A stretch of DNA of 8,576 nucleotides from Actinomycetes bacterium. GTDB lineage: Bacteria; Actinomycetota; Acidimicrobiia; Acidimicrobiales; Acidimicrobiaceae. The notes under the pieces were generated by a model that was given only the letters and a program-made list of their open reading frames with translations, ran no database searches and was not told the origin of the DNA. Position 1 is the first letter of the stretch. Each line of letters begins with the position of its first letter. The stretch spans positions 1 to 8,576 of the forward strand of contig JAKAOC010000074.1 of NCBI GenBank assembly GCA_021823385.1, written 5' to 3'. The position numbers were made by a program, and so were the translations under genes. Positions 3 through 8,576 of the stretch are shown here, piece by piece.

Positions 3-104
3 GCCGCCGCGCTGATCAACGGTCTACGAGAGCTACTCAGCGACCGCTCCGGGGTCATGCTCGTCTCCGACACGTGGGTGAGCCGTCCGGAGTACTTCCG
101 GTGA
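3..104 (+). CDS. 3' end of an unidentified protein-coding gene
   Basis: The frame is open from the left edge of the window and ends at TGA 102-104, giving 33 codons. About 29 of 33 codons end in G or C, as expected for a real gene in this genome. The visible C-terminus (ending DTWVSRPEYFR) is hydrophilic and shows no motif I recognise, so no function is proposed. A GC-rich inverted repeat begins four bases after the stop codon and may mark the end of the transcript. That this is coding sequence is inferred from codon bias alone. Confidence 0.5.
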   Translation, partial: AAALINGLRELLSDRSGVMLVSDTWVSRPEYFR

Positions 105-107
105 GCT

Positions 108-134
108 CCGCCACCTGCCGGGAGGGTGTGGCGG
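108..134 (+). terminator. Possible GC-rich hairpin after the first gene
   Basis: CCGCCAC at 108-114 pairs with GTGGCGG at 128-134 across a 13-base loop, starting just after the stop codon at 104. No T-run follows, so it is not a classical intrinsic terminator. Its position is the main argument for it. Confidence 0.2.
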
Positions 135-251
135 GTGGTGGCGCGAGCCGTCTGCGCGGGCGGCCACGCCGTCGGTTGGCACGTATAGGGCCAGAGGACA
201 GCCGGACGGACCCGCCTGTGGTCATTGCCGGTGACGACCAAGAGGTTGATT

Positions 252-517
252 ATGGCCGATCTGTTCCTTCTGAGCCACGGGGGAACCGCATCCCCATTCG
301 GGTCGTGATCCACAATTCGATCGTCCACCTCGTACTCCGCCCCATCCCCGGGATCACGCTGGCCGAGTATCGAAGGTGCTTCCCGCCGGGGCGTAATTGC
401 CACCAGAACCAAGTGCGGGCCCTACCCGGCAAGCAGGCGGCGTTGCTGCACTTCAACGAGCTCCTGACCGACCGCTGGACCCTGAGCGATGTGGCGGTGG
501 GGTGCGCTCGCCCATGA
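252..517 (+). pseudogene. Small unknown ORF, apparently frameshifted near 290-305
   Basis: ATG at 252 has a good ribosome-binding site (AGAGG at 241-245, six bases upstream). It reads 18 codons with G/C-rich third positions, starting MADLFLLSHGG, before a stop at 306-308. From about 290 the frame one base earlier takes over with about 86% G/C third positions and runs to TGA 515-517, including the stretch GKQAALLHFNELL. Before 290 that second frame has poor codon bias, so the switch looks like a single frameshift in a roughly 88-codon gene. I do not recognise the product. It could be a pseudogene, a sequencing error or a chance run. The rest of 105-600 holds nothing else I can name. Confidence 0.3.
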
Positions 518-1941: not shown

Positions 1942-3663
1942 CTACGCGTCGACCGGCTGGTGGGGGTGAATGGTGTGGTCGTGACCCACCAAGGCACCCT
2001 GTGAGGCGCTACCGACCTGACGTGCGTATTTCGCCAAGAAGCCGTTCCCGCCGGGAAGAGGCGGCGCGTTCCACAGCCGCCGCCGCCGGTCGATCTCGGC
2101 TGAGGCCACCAGGAGGTCGAGGCGCCTTTCCTCGATGTCGATGAGGATCTGGTCGCCATCGGCGACGAGTCCGATTGGCCCGCCGACCGCGGATTCGGGA
2201 GAGACGTGACCGATGGACAGCCCGGTCGTGGCACCGGAGAAGCGGCCGTCGGTGATCAAGGCGACGTCGTGACCGTGGCTACTCCCGTTGACCGCCGCTG
2301 TCACGGCCAACATCTCGGGCATTCCAGGGCCGCCGCGGGGGCCCTCGCCACGGATGATGAGGACGTCGCCCGGTCGCAGCGTGCCCGAGCGGACATAGGC
2401 CATGGCCGGCTCCTCACCCTCGAACACCCGCGCCGTGCCGGTAAAGCGACGGACCTTCAATCCGGCGACCTTCACCACAGCCCCATCGGGAGCGAGCGAG
2501 CCGTACAGGATCGCGAGCCCGCCCTCTTCGTGCAAGGGGTGATCGATAGGGCGGACGACCGAGCCGTCCGGACTTGGGACATCGAGAGCAGTGAGGTTCT
2601 CCGCGAGGGTCGCCCCGGTCACGGTCATGCATTCGCCGTGAAGTAGACCAGCGTCGAGTAGCGCCTTCAGCACGATCGGCATGCCCCCCACCCGATCGAG
2701 ATCTGCCATCACGTACTGGCCTCCGGGCCGGAGATCCGCGAAGTGGGGGACCCGCCGGCCGATCCGATCGAAGTCATCGAGTGAGAGAGCCACTCCCGCT
2801 TCGTGCGCGATGGCCATCAGGTGGAGCACTGCGTTGGTGGAGCCGCCGAGGGCCATCACGACCGTGATCGCGTTTTCGAACGCCTCCCGGGTGAGGATAT
2901 GACGCGGGCGCAAGCCTGCCTCGAGGAGGTGCACTGCGGCTGCGCCGCTTCGATAGGCGATGTCCTCGCGGCGGGAGCCGCCCGCCGGCGGCGTCGCAGA
3001 CCCCGGCAGGGCCATCCCGAGCGCCTCAGCCTCGGCGGCCACGGTGTTCGCGGTGTACATGCCTGCGCACGACCCCTCTCCCGGGCAGGCCACGCGCTCG
3101 ATCTCCTCGAGCTCTTCGACTGACATGTGCCCGGCACTCACCGCTCCGACCCCTTCGAAGACGTCTTGCACGGTCACAGCGCGGCCTCGGTGCAAACCGG
3201 GCATGCTGCTGCCGCCGTAGACGAAGACCGTGGGGATGTCTAGCCGGGCTGCCGCCATCAGCATCGCCGGGAGGCTCTTGTCGCAGCCGGCAATCGTGAC
3301 GAGCGCGTCGAAGCGCTCCGCGACGGCCATGCACTCGACCGAGTCGGCAATGAGGTCCCGGCTCGGCAGGGAAGCCCGCATCCCGCTATGTCCCATCGCG
3401 ATGCCGTCGGACACGGCGATAGTCGCGAACCCGAGCGCAACGGCGCCTGCGTCGACGGCTCCGCGCCGCGCGGAAGAAGCCAGCCGCGACAACCCCATGT
3501 TGCACGGCGTGACGTCGTTCGCAGCGGCAGCGACCCCGATCTGAGGCTTGTCGAAGTCGCCGTCCTCGAACCCGACCGCTCGCAGCATCGCCCGGGCCGG
3601 GGCCCTCGCCACACCGGCGGTGACTTCGCGGCTTCGCCTATTCGGATCCTGAGCCATCTGCAT
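1942..3663 (-). CDS. ilvD: Dihydroxy-acid dehydratase
   Basis: It dehydrates 2,3-dihydroxyisovalerate and 2,3-dihydroxy-3-methylvalerate to the 2-keto acids in cytosolic valine, isoleucine, leucine and pantothenate synthesis. The 573-residue protein covers the whole IlvD/Edd family length. Three conserved cysteines are present: C54 (TPCNMG), C127 (AGCDKS) and C199 ([13 protein letters not shown]). This is the pattern of [2Fe-2S]-type enzymes. K128 of GCDKSLP is the metal-site lysine that is carboxylated in the family, and S476 of [19 protein letters not shown] is the expected catalytic serine. ATG 3663 is preferred because a promoter ends just upstream; ATG 3657 is two codons further in. No Shine-Dalgarno sequence precedes either, which fits leaderless translation. 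No other ilv or leu gene is in the window. Confidence 0.97.
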
Positions 3664-4287: not shown

Positions 4288-4316
4288 ACTTGTATACGAA
4301 CTACAATTCGTATAAT
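4288..4316 (+). promoter_or_regulatory. Promoter of the isocitrate dehydrogenase-purK operon
   Basis: A perfect TATAAT at 4311-4316 has ACTTGT (4288-4293) 17 bases upstream, or TTGTAT (4290-4295) at the short spacing of 15; neither is a good -35. Transcription would begin around 4323-4326, at the ATG of the next ORF (4326), so the message is probably leaderless. The local A/T richness stands out against the GC-rich surroundings. Confidence 0.55.
4293..4314. promoter_or_regulatory. Perfect 8-bp inverted repeat over the -10 box, likely operator
   Basis: TATACGAA (4293-4300), six bases, then TTCGTATA (4307-4314) is a perfect dyad. Its right arm supplies the first four bases of the TATAAT box, so a bound protein would block RNA polymerase. 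The left part, TTGTATACGA, resembles GntR/FadR-type operators, but no regulator gene is present to support that. No transcription factor is identified. Confidence 0.5.
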
Positions 4317-4325
4317 GTGGTGCGT

Positions 4326-4721
4326 ATGATGAGCAATGTAGGGATGTCGAGCAGCCAGTGTTGCACTCCGGCGCGGCCAGGATGGCGGCGTCAGCGGGTG
4401 GTAGGGGTCGACCTGTGGGCGGACTGCCCCTCTGGTGGGCAGCAGGTGATGGCCATGGCCCGCTGTGCTGCGACCGCTACGCACCTCCGCCTGGCCACTG
4501 TGATGGAAGTGCACCGCGACGAAGGAGAGCCGGAAGGCGACAACGAGGACGGTGTTCTCCGCCTGCGCTTCTTGGCCCGCCGCGACGACGTTCACGTGAC
4601 CGACGAGGCGATCTGGGAGCTCCTGGTCAGGCTGCCCGGTGGGCTGCGGTGGTCGCGGCTGGCCAAGCTGGAGGAGTTCGACGGCATCCCGAACTTCGTC
4701 CCGCTGCCGGCGCTGCCATGA
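4326..4721 (+). CDS. Stand-alone isocitrate dehydrogenase C-terminal-domain protein
   Basis: This 131-residue protein has no dehydrogenase core but resembles the extra C-terminal domain of Thermus-type isocitrate dehydrogenase. It shows VVGVDLW (25-31), HLRL (53-56), LRLRFLAR (78-85), ELLVRL (98-103) and KLEEFDGIPNF (114-124). The next gene's product has LVGIDVF, LELV, WRCRFQA, ALLGRL and LFTFDGQPGF in the same order and spacing. The first 22 residues look unstructured, and an acidic insert EGEPEGDNED lies at 66-75. It starts at or beside the predicted transcription start (second ATG at 4329), with no Shine-Dalgarno sequence. It ends 45 bases before the dehydrogenase gene, so the two are probably cotranscribed. 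The role is unknown: a regulatory partner is possible, as is a relic of a second full-length copy. The divergence shows that it is not a recent duplication. Confidence 0.6.
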   Translation: MMSNVGMSSSQCCTPARPGWRRQRVVGVDLWADCPSGGQQVMAMARCAATATHLRLATVMEVHRDEGEPEGDNEDGVLRLRFLARRDDVHVTDEAIWELLVRLPGGLRWSRLAKLEEFDGIPNFVPLPALP

Positions 4722-4766: not shown

Positions 4767-6221
4767 ATGAGCACTGGCAGTAATGGGGCGGTCCCGATCA
4801 CGGTCGCGTACGGCGACGGTATCGGCCCGGAGATCATGGAGGCCACTCTTCGCATCATCATGGCCGGCGGCGCCGATCTGGACGTGACGACGATCCGGAT
4901 TGGCGAGGCGGTCTACGCGGCGGGCAACACCGCCGGCATCGAACCGGAGGCCTGGGAATCCTTGCGCAGGACCAAGGTCTTCCTGAAGGCTCCCATCACG
5001 ACGCCCCAAGGGGGCGGGTTCAAGAGCCTGAACGTGACCGTCCGCAAGGCGTTCGGCCTCTTCGCAAACGTAAGGCCCTGCCCTTCGTACTCCCCGTTCG
5101 TCGCGACGAAGCATCCCGGCATGGACGTCGTCATAATCCGTGAGAACGAAGAGGACCTCTACGGCGGTATCGAGCATCGCCAGACAGAAGATGTCACCCA
5201 GTGCCTGAAGCTCATCACGAGACCGGGGACCGAACGTCTGGTCAGGTACGCCTTCGAGTACGCCCGTCGCTACGGACGCTCCAAGATCACCTGCTTCACC
5301 AAGGACAACATCATGAAGATGACCGACGGGCTGTTCCGCCGCGTCTTCGAGGAGGTGGCGGCCGAGTACCCGGACATCGAGTCCGAGCACTGGATCGTGG
5401 ACATAGGTGCAGCCAAGCTTGCGGACACTCCCGAAGCCTTCGACGTCGTCGTCCTGCCGAACCTCTACGGTGACATCCTCTCCGATGTGGCGGCACAGAT
5501 CGCCGGATCCGTCGGCCTTGCAGGCAGCGCGAACGTCGGCAGCGAGATCGCGATGTTCGAGGCGATCCACGGATCTGCGCCTCGGCGGGCCGGCCAGAAC
5601 CTGGCCAACCCCTCGGGCCTGCTGCTCGGGGCTGTCCAGATGCTCGTTCACATCGGCCAGGGCGCGGTGGCTGAGCGAGTCCACAACGCCTGGTTGCGCA
5701 CCATTGAGGATGGTGTGCACACCTATGACATCTACGATCCCGAGGTCTCGCGCGAGAAGGTCGGGACCTCCCAGTTCGCGGACGCGGTGATAGTCCGGCT
5801 GGGCGAGTCACCGAAGGCTCTAAAGCCCGTCCACTACCCGTCGAGCTCCGAGCGGATCTCCGTCGCAGTTTCGGAGCGTCCGCTCGCCAGGAAAGAGCTG
5901 GTGGGCATCGACGTGTTCGTGGAGTCTCGCAAGCCCGTCGACGAGCTGGCCAAAGCCCTCGAAGAGAACGCCGGCCCTCTCGAGCTGGTCATGATCACCA
6001 ATCGTGGGCAAAAGGTCTACCCGGGTGGCATCCCGGAAACATTCTGCGTGGACCATTGGCGCTGCCGCTTCCAGGCCGGCGAAGCGGACGGGCCTTTCTC
6101 CTACGAGGACGTACTCGCGTTGCTCGGACGTCTGGTAGGGGCGGGCCTACCCTTCATCAAGACCGAAGGGCTGTTCACCTTCGACGGCCAGCCCGGCTTC
6201 TCCCTTGGTCAGGGGCAATGA
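4767..6221 (+). CDS. icd: Isocitrate dehydrogenase, Thermus/Rickettsia type with C-terminal domain
   Basis: It oxidatively decarboxylates isocitrate to 2-oxoglutarate in the TCA cycle. The core of 484 residues shows YGDGIGPE (15-22), the isocitrate-binding SLNVTVRK (88-94) with R103 and R125, RENEEDLYGGIEHRQ (125-139), KDN (179-181), and metal-binding D212, D236 and D240 (PNLYGDILSD). HGSAPRRAGQN (268-278) is the adenine loop. R273 and R274 occupy the places of the lysine and tyrosine that hold the 2'-phosphate in NADP enzymes, so NADP use is likely but inferred. Residues 377-484 form the additional C-terminal domain that the upstream ORF duplicates. ATG 4767 is set by AAGGAG at 4755-4760, six bases upstream. 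The stop overlaps purK. A related decarboxylating dehydrogenase is less likely because of the C-terminal domain. Confidence 0.92.
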   Translation: MSTGSNGAVPITVAYGDGIGPEIMEATLRIIMAGGADLDVTTIRIGEAVYAAGNTAGIEPEAWESLRRTKVFLKAPITTPQGGGFKSLNVTVRKAFGLFANVRPCPSYSPFVATKHPGMDVVIIRENEEDLYGGIEHRQTEDVTQCLKLITRPGTERLVRYAFEYARRYGRSKITCFTKDNIMKMTDGLFRRVFEEVAAEYPDIESEHWIVDIGAAKLADTPEAFDVVVLPNLYGDILSDVAAQIAGSVGLAGSANVGSEIAMFEAIHGSAPRRAGQNLANPSGLLLGAVQMLVHIGQGAVAERVHNAWLRTIEDGVHTYDIYDPEVSREKVGTSQFADAVIVRLGESPKALKPVHYPSSSERISVAVSERPLARKELVGIDVFVESRKPVDELAKALEENAGPLELVMITNRGQKVYPGGIPETFCVDHWRCRFQAGEADGPFSYEDVLALLGRLVGAGLPFIKTEGLFTFDGQPGFSLGQGQ

Positions 6222-7426
6222 CCATTATCGGAGGTCCGCGCGGAGGCCAGCCCAGTGCTCGTAACGGGCACGGCGAGGTGAGTATCCGCAGGCGGGGGTC
6301 GGCCAGGGTGGCGATGATCGGAGCTGGGCAAGTAGCCCGGATGACCTACCAGGCTGCCGTCGATCTCGACATCGATGTCGTAGTCCTGGCTGGGTCCGCC
6401 GATGACAGCGCCGTCGTCGGTGGCGCACCGCACCGGTTGGGATCATCGTCGTGCTTGGCGGACATCCAGGCGGTGGCTGCGGGGGCCGACGTAGTCACCT
6501 TCGACCACGAGGTAGTCCCTTGGGCGCATCTGGAGCGGCTGGAGCAGCTCGGATATCGCTTGCGCCCGGCGTCGCCTGCACTGGGCCTGGCCCAGGACAA
6601 GCTCAAGGCTCGCACGGTCCTATCGGAGTCGGGTTTCCCCGTGCCGGCGTTCGCTCGGGTGTCGTCACCGGGAGACGTCGCGAGGTTCGCCGAAGCGCAG
6701 GGGTGGCCGGTCATAGTGAAAGGCGCGAGGGGCGGCTACGGCGGTCGAGGCCTCCACCTGATTGAGAGCCTGGACCAAGCTGGGGCTCTCTTCGAGCCGG
6801 GAACGCGTGAGAATTCCTTTTGGCTTGCCGAGGAGCACGTCGACATCGCGGCCGAGCTGGCGATCCTGATCGCCCGCAGCGTTTCAGGGTACGTGGCGGT
6901 GTACCCGGCCATCCAAACCGTCCATGAGGCCGGGGTCCGCCGGCACCTGCTCATGCCGGCATCGCTGCCCGCCCCTGTCATCGACCAGGCAGTTCGGATG
7001 GCGAAGTCGATCGCCGACGGCATCGACGCCACCGGGGTGCTCGCCGTGGAGATGTTCCTCGACACCCGTGGCCAGCTTCTCGTCGACGAGATCGCCCTGC
7101 GGCCGCACAACTCCGGTCATGTCACGATCGAGGCCTGTGAGACTTCGCAGTTCCACCAGCACTTGCGTGCCGTGCTCGACTGGCCGCTCGGTGCCACGAC
7201 GCTGCGCAGCCCCGCGGCGACCGTGAACCTTATCAGCGGGACGGACACCTGCGACCCCTCTGTCCGGCTTCCCCGCGCCCTGGCCGTCACCGGCGCGCAT
7301 ATCCATCTGTATGGGAAGGCTCCTCGCCCAGGCCGCAAGCTTGGACACGTCACCGCCCTCGGTGCGAGCACGGAGCATGCGCTCGAGACCGCGCAAACGG
7401 TGGCTGCGCTGCTCACGGAGTCATGA
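6218..7426 (+). CDS. purK: 5-(carboxyamino)imidazole ribonucleotide synthase
   Basis: PurK uses ATP and bicarbonate to carboxylate AIR to N5-CAIR in de novo purine synthesis; PurE then rearranges the product. The 402-residue protein has the ATP-grasp layout. GAGQVARM (35-42) begins the N-terminal domain, and TFDHEVVP (94-101) and AQDKLKAR (125-132) follow. KGARGGYGGRG (168-178) is the ATP-binding loop, EMF (278-280) and DEIALRPHNSGH (290-301) carry the metal and substrate residues, and TSQFHQHLRAVLDWPLG (309-325) and HLYGKAPRPGRKLGH (363-377) close the fold. ATG 6218 overlaps the dehydrogenase stop as ATGA, with AGGGG at 6211-6215, indicating translational coupling. About 27 residues precede the first motif, so GTG 6278 is an alternative start. 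No purE follows, although purK and purE often sit together. Confidence 0.95.
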   Translation: MTIIGGPRGGQPSARNGHGEVSIRRRGSARVAMIGAGQVARMTYQAAVDLDIDVVVLAGSADDSAVVGGAPHRLGSSSCLADIQAVAAGADVVTFDHEVVPWAHLERLEQLGYRLRPASPALGLAQDKLKARTVLSESGFPVPAFARVSSPGDVARFAEAQGWPVIVKGARGGYGGRGLHLIESLDQAGALFEPGTRENSFWLAEEHVDIAAELAILIARSVSGYVAVYPAIQTVHEAGVRRHLLMPASLPAPVIDQAVRMAKSIADGIDATGVLAVEMFLDTRGQLLVDEIALRPHNSGHVTIEACETSQFHQHLRAVLDWPLGATTLRSPAATVNLISGTDTCDPSVRLPRALAVTGAHIHLYGKAPRPGRKLGHVTALGASTEHALETAQTVAALLTES

Positions 7427-7503
7427 GCCCGGCTTAGACCGCCCGGCGAGATCAGGTGGTCCGTGCTGGCGTGAGGCGGTTGGTGCGTCCTCGCCCGAGA
7501 CGC

Positions 7504-7680
7504 ATGGGGCGCGCGGAGCACCCGGTGGTCGCACTGCGGTTACGCGCCGGCACGCTCACTTGGTGGGGAGACTATCTCGGGCAGGTCGAGCAGGCGCAGC
7601 CAGGTGCCGTCTTCCTGGCGGCCTACGACCCTGGGCGCCCAGCGGCGCAGGTGTTCAGAAGGCACGCCACGACGAAGTGA
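7504..7680 (+). CDS. Small unknown protein at the end of the purK operon
   Basis: ATG 7504 to TGA 7680 encodes 58 residues, or 74 residues from GTG 7456. About 84% of codons end in G or C, supporting coding. The protein includes the aromatic run LTWWGDYLG, then AVFLAAYDPGRPAAQVF, and is basic at its end. There is no clear signal peptide, membrane segment or Shine-Dalgarno sequence. It begins about 80 bases after purK on the same strand and is followed directly by a hairpin, so it may be the last gene of the operon. It does not resemble PurE. It could also be a fragment of a larger decayed gene, as several relics lie nearby. Function unknown. Confidence 0.4.
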   Translation: MGRAEHPVVALRLRAGTLTWWGDYLGQVEQAQPGAVFLAAYDPGRPAAQVFRRHATTK

Positions 7681-7682
7681 AT

Positions 7683-7699
7683 CCGAAGCGTAACTTCGG
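7683..7699 (+). terminator. Possible terminator hairpin after the purK operon
   Basis: CCGAAG (7683-7688), loop CGTAA, CTTCGG (7694-7699) is a perfect 6-bp stem starting two bases after the stop codon at 7680. The following bases, TCTAGATTCC, contain no T-run, so termination strength is doubtful. The stretch 7700-7950 shows no gene I can support. Confidence 0.35.
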
Positions 7700-7951
7700 T
7701 CTAGATTCCTGCGGCTGTGCTGCCGTCGTTCTGCTCTTGGCTATCTGCCTGCCTTATCCAAATGCAGTGAAGAGCAGAGTAGCAGTAACGCGGGTGTCCG
7801 GGCGGGGAGCGGGGAAGTGGCCGTTACGCACCCTCGGACTCTTCGAAGTCCCAGTGCATCTGGGCCTCCAGGCGGAAGTTGCGTCTCCTAAGCCATGGTT
7901 ATCCACGCTGAACTGGACATTTGCACCGAAGCGGCGTGCGGGTGCCGACCA

Positions 7952-8125
7952 CTTTAAGGGCGGCGGGATCGGTACCTCGATGAGCTCGAACACCTTTGGC
8001 TGAGTCGAGGTGGGCTCTGCCATGCGTTCGAAGGTGACGGCGGTCCCTGGGCGCCGGGCAGGTGTTGCGGGTGAGGGTGACGAGGTGGTCGAGTAGCTGC
8101 CGGCCGAGGCGGAGCGAACCGCGGG
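7952..8125 (-). pseudogene. Relic of the C-terminus of an insertion-sequence transposase
   Basis: Read on the minus strand, 8102-8058 encodes RQLLDHLVTLTRNTC. After a frame change between 8058 and 8047, 8047-7952 encodes GTAVTFERMAEP, then TSTQPKVFELIEVPIPPPLK. Together these resemble the C-terminal tail of DDE transposases common in actinomycete insertion sequences (tail of the form LATLTRNT..F...T.TQ.raFELi..pIP), perhaps IS1634- or IS4-like; this is from memory and the family is uncertain. The catalytic DDE region is absent and the frames are broken, so it cannot be active. Its upstream edge abuts the dedA relic at about 8126, suggesting the element once inserted there and was later deleted. 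Confidence 0.5.
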
Positions 8126-8401
8126 CGACACCGGGTCCTCACCTTCCTCGGCTCCCTTGTGTGGGATTGCGGCCTCGCCCTCCTTGGCTACAGCCTCGGC
8201 TCCGCTTGGAACTCTATAGCCCACGCCGTCTCCGGCGCCAGATACCTCATGGTCGCCGTGGTGGCGGCAGTTGCGGCCGTGCTCGGCCTGCTCCACTGGC
8301 AGAGCGGCGAGCTGGTGCGCCGGACCGACGGGGCCACCGGACACCTCTCCGCCCTGGCTCGGATCCAGGCCCGGACCTATGTGGCGTCGCTCGCGGCCTA
8401 G
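8126..8401 (+). pseudogene. 5'-truncated dedA-family membrane protein
   Basis: The frame from about 8126 to TAG 8399-8401 encodes RVLTFLGSLVWDCGLALLGY, then SLGSAW. This matches the segment of DedA/SNARE-associated membrane proteins around their conserved GslvWd..L...Gy.lG.sW motif. A hydrophobic helix (YLMVAVVAAVAAVLGLLHW) and a charged cytoplasmic tail follow. Members of the family are about 200 residues and take part in lipid flipping and membrane homeostasis. Here the N-terminal half is missing and the frame hits a stop at 8078-8080. GTG 8159 could start a short protein but lacks a ribosome-binding site. The truncation point coincides with the transposase relic. Membrane and motif features are visible; that it is non-functional is inferred. 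Confidence 0.6.
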
Positions 8402-8478
8402 GTAGAGCCGGAAGGAAGGAGAGGCTGAGCGCCGGTCCTTAGAGAGACCAGTTGTGTCCCGAATCTTGTGCAGATTCT

Positions 8479-8496
8479 CCGCCGCGTGAGCGGCGG
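8479..8496 (+). promoter_or_regulatory. Stable 7-bp hairpin with GTGA loop in the leader of the last gene
   Basis: CCGCCGC (8479-8485), GTGA, GCGGCGG (8490-8496) forms a perfect stem capped by a GNRA-type tetraloop. A smaller hairpin just upstream pairs GAATCT (8461-8466) with AGATTC (8472-8477). The right arm shares bases 8493-8496 with the long inverted repeat that covers the start codon, so the two structures cannot form together. Confidence 0.5.
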
Positions 8497-8557
8497 CCAT
8501 GGTATCTAGGGAGTTGAACACATACCTAGAACCTCCAAGGAGGGATACCATGGCCGC
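8493..8557 (+). repeat. 14-bp inverted repeat enclosing ribosome-binding site and covering the start codon
   Basis: GCGGCCATGGTATC (8493-8506) is the exact reverse complement of GATACCATGGCCGC (8544-8557), which contains the start codon at 8550. Inside it, TAGG (8507-8510) can pair with CCTA (8525-8528). In the remaining loop, CCTCC (8532-8536) is complementary to the GGAGG (8539-8543) of the Shine-Dalgarno sequence. In RNA this would hide the start codon and restrain the ribosome-binding site. Confidence 0.6.
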
Positions 8558-8576
8558 TAAAGCCAAGACTACCCAA
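8550..8576 (+). CDS. 5' end of an unidentified gene (first nine codons)
   Basis: ATG 8550 is preceded by a near-perfect Shine-Dalgarno sequence AAGGAGG (8537-8543), six bases upstream. The visible codons read MAAKAKTTQ before the window ends. Such a basic N-terminus is uninformative. The hairpin over the start resembles the read-through protection found at some transposase genes (IS10 and IS50 are known cases). A transposase is therefore one possibility, but a host gene under RNA control is equally possible. Confidence 0.6.

Follow-up and report, generated by a model that had tools for sequence, protein, structure and literature searches.

Bacterial isocitrate dehydrogenase (IDH) is usually viewed as a self-contained homodimer under phosphorylation or metabolite control. 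Free-standing regulatory subunits of the ACT type accompany other metabolic enzymes, e.g., as the small subunit of acetohydroxyacid synthase, and in the subfamily III heteromers of mitochondrial NAD-IDH, the regulatory subunits are paralogues of the entire catalytic fold. In the present study, an 8,576-nt contig (JAKAOC010000074.1; hereafter, the window) of an Actinomycetes bacterium from the family Acidimicrobiaceae was analyzed, in which a short open reading frame (ORF) predicted to encode a free IDH C-terminal domain (hereafter, the solo) stands directly before icd, the gene for a complete subfamily IV IDH. According to PMC3521221, subfamily IV comprises Rickettsia and Thermus subgroups, its long C-terminal region is a larger clasp-like structure, and IDH clasps are usually sheets built between both subunits. 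PMC4360740 cites work from 2014 on a Thermus structure with a novel terminal domain. A free IDH clasp domain was not found reported in the open-licence PMC literature, subscription papers being outside that scope.

Sequence and Predicted Structure of the Solo Domain

The solo ORF represents a conserved gene whose predicted product is a free clasp domain bearing features of the Thermus subgroup. The features concerned are as follows:

4326..4721, + strand: solo clasp-domain gene, 131 aa; conserved domain at about residues 22-127 (4389-4706)
4767..6221, + strand: full-length subfamily IV isocitrate dehydrogenase, 484 aa; PF00180 and PF18324; NF006673
5892..6218, + strand: attached clasp domain of the window IDH, residues 376-484; complete PF18324

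The frame 4326-4721 is open, and the window IDH scored 753.8 bits against NF006673 (cut-off 509). The preliminary description had read from the letters a solo domain just before the full enzyme, without a catalytic core and resembling the C-terminal domain of the next gene; all three points were borne out. BLASTP of the two window proteins gave E 1e-4 over 47 residues, and no PF00180 match was found in the solo at E ≤ 1, whereas the next gene has both domains. PF18324 matched residues 24-124 of the window solo (profile positions 2-104 of 110, E 0.0011); the score, 19.5 bits, falls short of the curated 25-bit cut-off. This cut-off was passed by one of six relatives scanned (P0061, 40.9 bits); PF18324 is also present in the precomputed annotation of some other relatives, and each of the 26 sequences in alignment A1 matched it at E ≤ 1, the lowest E being 2.6e-6. 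The A1 profile matched a single sequence in the PDB, Thermus IDH 2d1c (residues 385-490, E 4.4e-10), and the predicted fold of the solo agrees with that of the attached domain of 2d1c. Homology and predicted fold to PF18324 span the whole domain of the solo. Chance similarity to the IDH domain was ruled out by the profile matches and the predicted fold. Ten positions are invariant across 33 aligned solo members, and conservation starts at about residue 22; the candidate starts are an in-frame GTG at 4317, ATG at 4326, or a later codon, as in the 88-aa gene calls (e.g., P0004).

Distribution of the Solo Family

The first protein search for solo relatives yielded 34 proteins; the second, with a 25-row profile and only 7995 candidates scored, yielded 63 at E ≤ 0.01, including the window's own P0004 and short gene calls of about 80-90 aa. 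At least one of them, P0063, looks like a cut enzyme, since it retains the loop and the tail that attached domains have. Most of the 63 are without a name, and the named ones derive from Acidimicrobiales, Actinobacteria, and Ferrimicrobium sp. or carry no organism:

P0010, P0016, P0046, P0055: hypothetical proteins, Acidimicrobiales
P0035, P0044, P0048, P0052: hypothetical proteins, Actinobacteria
P0043: hypothetical protein, Ferrimicrobium sp.

The genome sets searched overlap one another. The solo profile matched at least 12 of 298 genomes in the order of G414 and at least 4 of 296 in the class of G001 (G133 among them with a full enzyme), both counts being lower bounds with at most 14 candidates scored per genome; for instance, G505, a member of the order-of-G414 set, was matched only in the family-of-G186 search. 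At the family level, matches were obtained in 7 of 42 genomes for G564 (G600 among them with a full enzyme), 4 of 6 for G414, 2 of 2 for G186, and 2 of 32 for G001, where the weak match of G423 gave nothing by tblastn. In the order of G002, A1 matched 23 of 126 genomes, and only G002 C72 is a solo of this family; the other rows were a 70-aa frame at a contig end (G069 C139), a weak match (G068 C8), and long frames. In G002, labelled Chloroflexi, solo and icd share a contig of acidimicrobial-like character, and a different contig bears a second icd with 47% identity (L044, L005); the solo contig may be mis-binned or represent a transfer.

PF18324 matched 28 of 346 genomes of the phylum and none of 14 control genomes, and all 30 matches listed lie in frames of 364-1671 aa; this search overlooked the solos of G414 and G186 and is therefore given little weight on solos. 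A search for free PF18324 proteins in other lineages with a Thermus-type domain query (63 candidates) retrieved 37 proteins; 36 were listed with a single contig apiece, and the remaining one had no contig count. Part of the PF00180 core is kept in six, and 11 are named isocitrate dehydrogenase, so that truncated enzymes appear to be involved. Phage or plasmid cargo was rejected, with no relative in two pattern-matched viral-contig stretches and nothing matched among plasmids by tblastn at E ≤ 1e-5.

Linkage with icd and Neighbouring Genes

A solo or its remnant was found in 19 genomes, 17 of which have an intact copy (G001, G002, G186, G414, G452, G454, G455, G482, G491, G505, G517, G564, G988, G989, G1001, G1005, and G1006). 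The most diverged intact solo is that of G505, and the protein tail of G988 is altered. As anticipated, relatives retain the ORF as a gene of its own, mostly just before icd: in 14 of the 17, icd follows the solo immediately and in the same orientation, including G001 and G517, in which icd is cut by the contig end. Moreover, all 17 genomes contain a subfamily IV icd, whether whole or contig-cut, linked or not. In G1001, where the two genes are unlinked, a decayed solo was sought in the roughly 290-nt icd leader, without convincing similarity (best tblastn E 0.008). At 8 of 12 loci, 45-75 nt separate the solo from icd, and a ribosome-site-like AAGGAG lies close to where icd starts; the gap in G505 is about 200 nt; at three loci (G414, G454, and G482), a candidate icd start overlaps the solo stop by 4 nt.

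The window order is sua5 (+), ilvD (-), and then the solo ORF, icd, and purK on the + strand, with the following flanking genes:

1942..3663, - strand: ilvD, dihydroxy-acid dehydratase; divergent neighbour of the solo
6218..7426, + strand: purK, 5-(carboxyamino)imidazole ribonucleotide synthase; NF004680; start picked by reading

The purK product scored 358 bits against NF004680 (cut-off 327), and its ATG shares letters with the icd stop (ATGA). In 7311-8576, which covers the end of purK and the stretch beyond it, five ORFs from both strands matched nothing in Pfam at E ≤ 0.1. purK lies 3' of icd in nine genomes (G186, G452, G455, G482, G491, G564, G568, G1005, and G1006), those of G1005 and G1006 being only 33-36% identical, and on the other side, before the solo, in G414 and G505; the stretches retrieved from G002 and G454 did not contain it. 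A link of icd with purine genes was noted: a Rickettsia-type icd precedes purK in the window, and a Thermus-type icd precedes purE in G133 (L045 4057-4638).

Upstream Element

The following was recognized before the solo:

4293..4316, + strand: upstream element with an 8-bp inverted repeat TATACGAA/TTCGTATA and a 6-nt spacer (4293-4314; letters checked)
4311-4316, + strand: -10-like TATAAT overlapping the inverted repeat

Related elements lie just before the solo in several relatives, and the promoter of its own that had been proposed for the solo is thus likely. Occurrences of the element were noted at L041 2530, L065 7070, L090 7253(-), and L105 3701. The general form of the element is TATNNTGA-N7-TTCG, of which the window palindrome TATACGAA-N6-TTCGTATA is a variant that the search pattern TATNNTGAN7TTCG does not match. 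In 7 of 13 genomes, one match of the pattern fell at the solo promoter. The G1001 genome, where solo and icd are on separate contigs, has only two matches, one upstream of each gene; the backward control had three matches in this genome. A regulon defined by the pattern was rejected for lack of genome-wide enrichment (34 matches vs. 29 in the backward control, 13 genomes).

Origin of the Solo Domain

The tree was built from 125 columns and comprised 38 attached domains along with 20 solos. All solos formed one group with support of 100/100, at which, according to the program's warning, long branches meet; the 18 Rickettsia-like attached domains, including the operon-mates, formed another (100/100), and the 20 Thermus-like ones did not form a single group. 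Constraining the solos with 11 operon-mate domains (one from G568, whose solo is broken) cost 26.3 log units and was rejected by the approximately unbiased (AU) test (p-AU 0.0245), while constraining them with all 18 Rickettsia-type domains cost 1.55 and was not rejected (p 0.40); both p values are approximate, the groups having been picked after the tree was seen. In the rows compared, RW-x-L-KL-EFDG is common to solos and Thermus-type domains, and the solos are without the one-residue insertion of Rickettsia-type domains. A recent tandem duplication of the neighbour's clasp domain is thus disfavoured by the tree and the indel pattern, and the original view of the solo as a diverged copy of that domain was not upheld. 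As a plausible origin, a Rickettsia-type icd may have displaced a Thermus-type icd at a pur-linked locus and left the clasp behind.

Selection and Proposed Role

The dN/dS ratios (nonsynonymous to synonymous substitution rates) were calculated by the Nei-Gojobori method, many distant pairs being saturated at synonymous sites; for the solo ORF, the ratio was below 1 in every computable pair. The values were 0.07 for G452-G455 (differences at codon positions 1/2/3 of 14/13/61), 0.19 for G414-G454 (7/2/16), and 0.21 for the window and G001 (4/2/9). Solo distances correlated with icd-core distances (Mantel r 0.85, p 0.0001, n = 14), which indicates co-inheritance and not interaction, since shared descent alone yields such a correlation.

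A connection between the solo and IDH is supported by their co-inheritance, the gene order, and the constraint on the solo. Since the region of the enzyme homologous to the solo forms a clasp-like structure, the most direct interpretation is hetero-assembly. In the most likely mechanism, the free domain would be made together with the complete IDH, bind it through the clasp, replacing or on top of the attached domain, and give a hetero-assembly with changed activity, stability, or metabolite response. Thus, the conserved solo of acid-site actinobacteria, which usually stands directly before icd, may be an extra, previously undescribed IDH subunit tuning a key step of central metabolism. That the solo binds and modulates IDH is given an even chance; the binding itself, its site, and any effect on activity are what we infer. 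The preliminary description holds as regards a conserved solo domain before icd, the fold match, and dN/dS below 1, though not as regards a copy of the neighbour's domain.

Several observations weigh against this proposal. Intact but unlinked solos stand by ilvD or sua5 in G988, G989, and G1001, and the only subfamily IV icd found in G988 and G989 belongs to a different subtype, with identities of 69% and 68%, respectively. Five solos compared with attached domains are without the NRGxxVYP loop and QG tail; P0061 and the G505 protein retain a piece resembling the VYP loop. Higher dN/dS values were obtained for window-G002 (0.53 vs. 0.11 for icd) and G001-G002 (0.63, the highest), and the solo evolves fast, its median protein distance being 0.62-0.63, compared with 0.17 in the icd core and 0.32 in the attached domain. 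The solo is broken in G568 (L071 ~6351-6600, mid-contig; a stop and internal loss), whose icd keeps both domains despite this, and in G603 (L069 ~36-415(-) and L070 ~218-370(-)), where the copies lie near contig ends and an assembly error is possible.

The solo could instead be an independent ACT-like (ferredoxin-like) ligand-binding regulator acting off IDH, with its position before icd inherited from its origin. This explanation is considered rather doubtful.

It is unlikely that the solo is a relic, i.e., a tolerated, slowly decaying 3' end of a Thermus-type icd displaced by the Rickettsia-type gene. Such an origin would fit the Thermus-type features beside a Rickettsia-type enzyme, the icd-purE order in G133 (class of G001) next to icd-purK in the window, and the relaxed window-G002 pair. 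Broken homologues, named beforehand as a sign of a mere copy, do occur in G568 and G603, but 17 of 19 genomes have an open frame, constraint is seen in three close pairs (0.07, 0.19, and 0.21), and the ten invariant positions persist in 33 members. A relic origin is, moreover, compatible with a function gained later.

A leader cistron acting via translational coupling to icd and not via its protein, as the 4-nt overlaps at 3 of 12 loci might suggest, is very improbable given the protein-level conservation and predicted fold, the 45-75 nt gaps with AAGGAG at 8 of 12 loci, and the three genomes with an intact solo without icd beside it.

Under the preferred reading of hetero-assembly, a more specific scenario is put forward tentatively, as possible rather than probable: acidophilic Acidimicrobiia would possess a heteromeric IDH in which the displaced Thermus-type enzyme's clasp was kept as a trans-acting subunit controlling the Rickettsia-type newcomer and so the branch point of the tricarboxylic acid cycle. 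If modulation by the solo is true, a clasp domain with its own conserved gene next to that of the complete enzyme would represent a new control of the isocitrate branch point; it would also exemplify how an enzyme domain turns into a subunit, perhaps after gene displacement.

Comparison with Known Systems

The closest known system is the attached clasp C2 domain of subfamily IV IDH (2d1c 385-490; PF18324), to which it is homologous in sequence and predicted fold, both having a VGVD start and an RW-L-KL-EFDG end. It differs in being a separate conserved gene without the catalytic core and, in the rows compared, without the NRGxxVYP loop and QG tail. Subfamily IV IDH itself needs the Iso_dh core and the C-terminal domain in one chain, and the solo, without PF00180, is not such an enzyme. 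Like ACT-type subunits, the solo is a small, putatively ferredoxin-like (ACT-like b-a-b-b-a-b) domain encoded next to an enzyme, with a possible role as a trans regulator; unlike the case of those subunits, to which it showed no sequence relation in the Pfam scans of the window solo and A1 members, the enzyme here keeps its own attached domain. Finally, the solo and IDH would make a heteromeric IDH as in mitochondrial NAD-IDH, although, unlike the regulatory subunits of the latter, the solo has no Iso_dh match.
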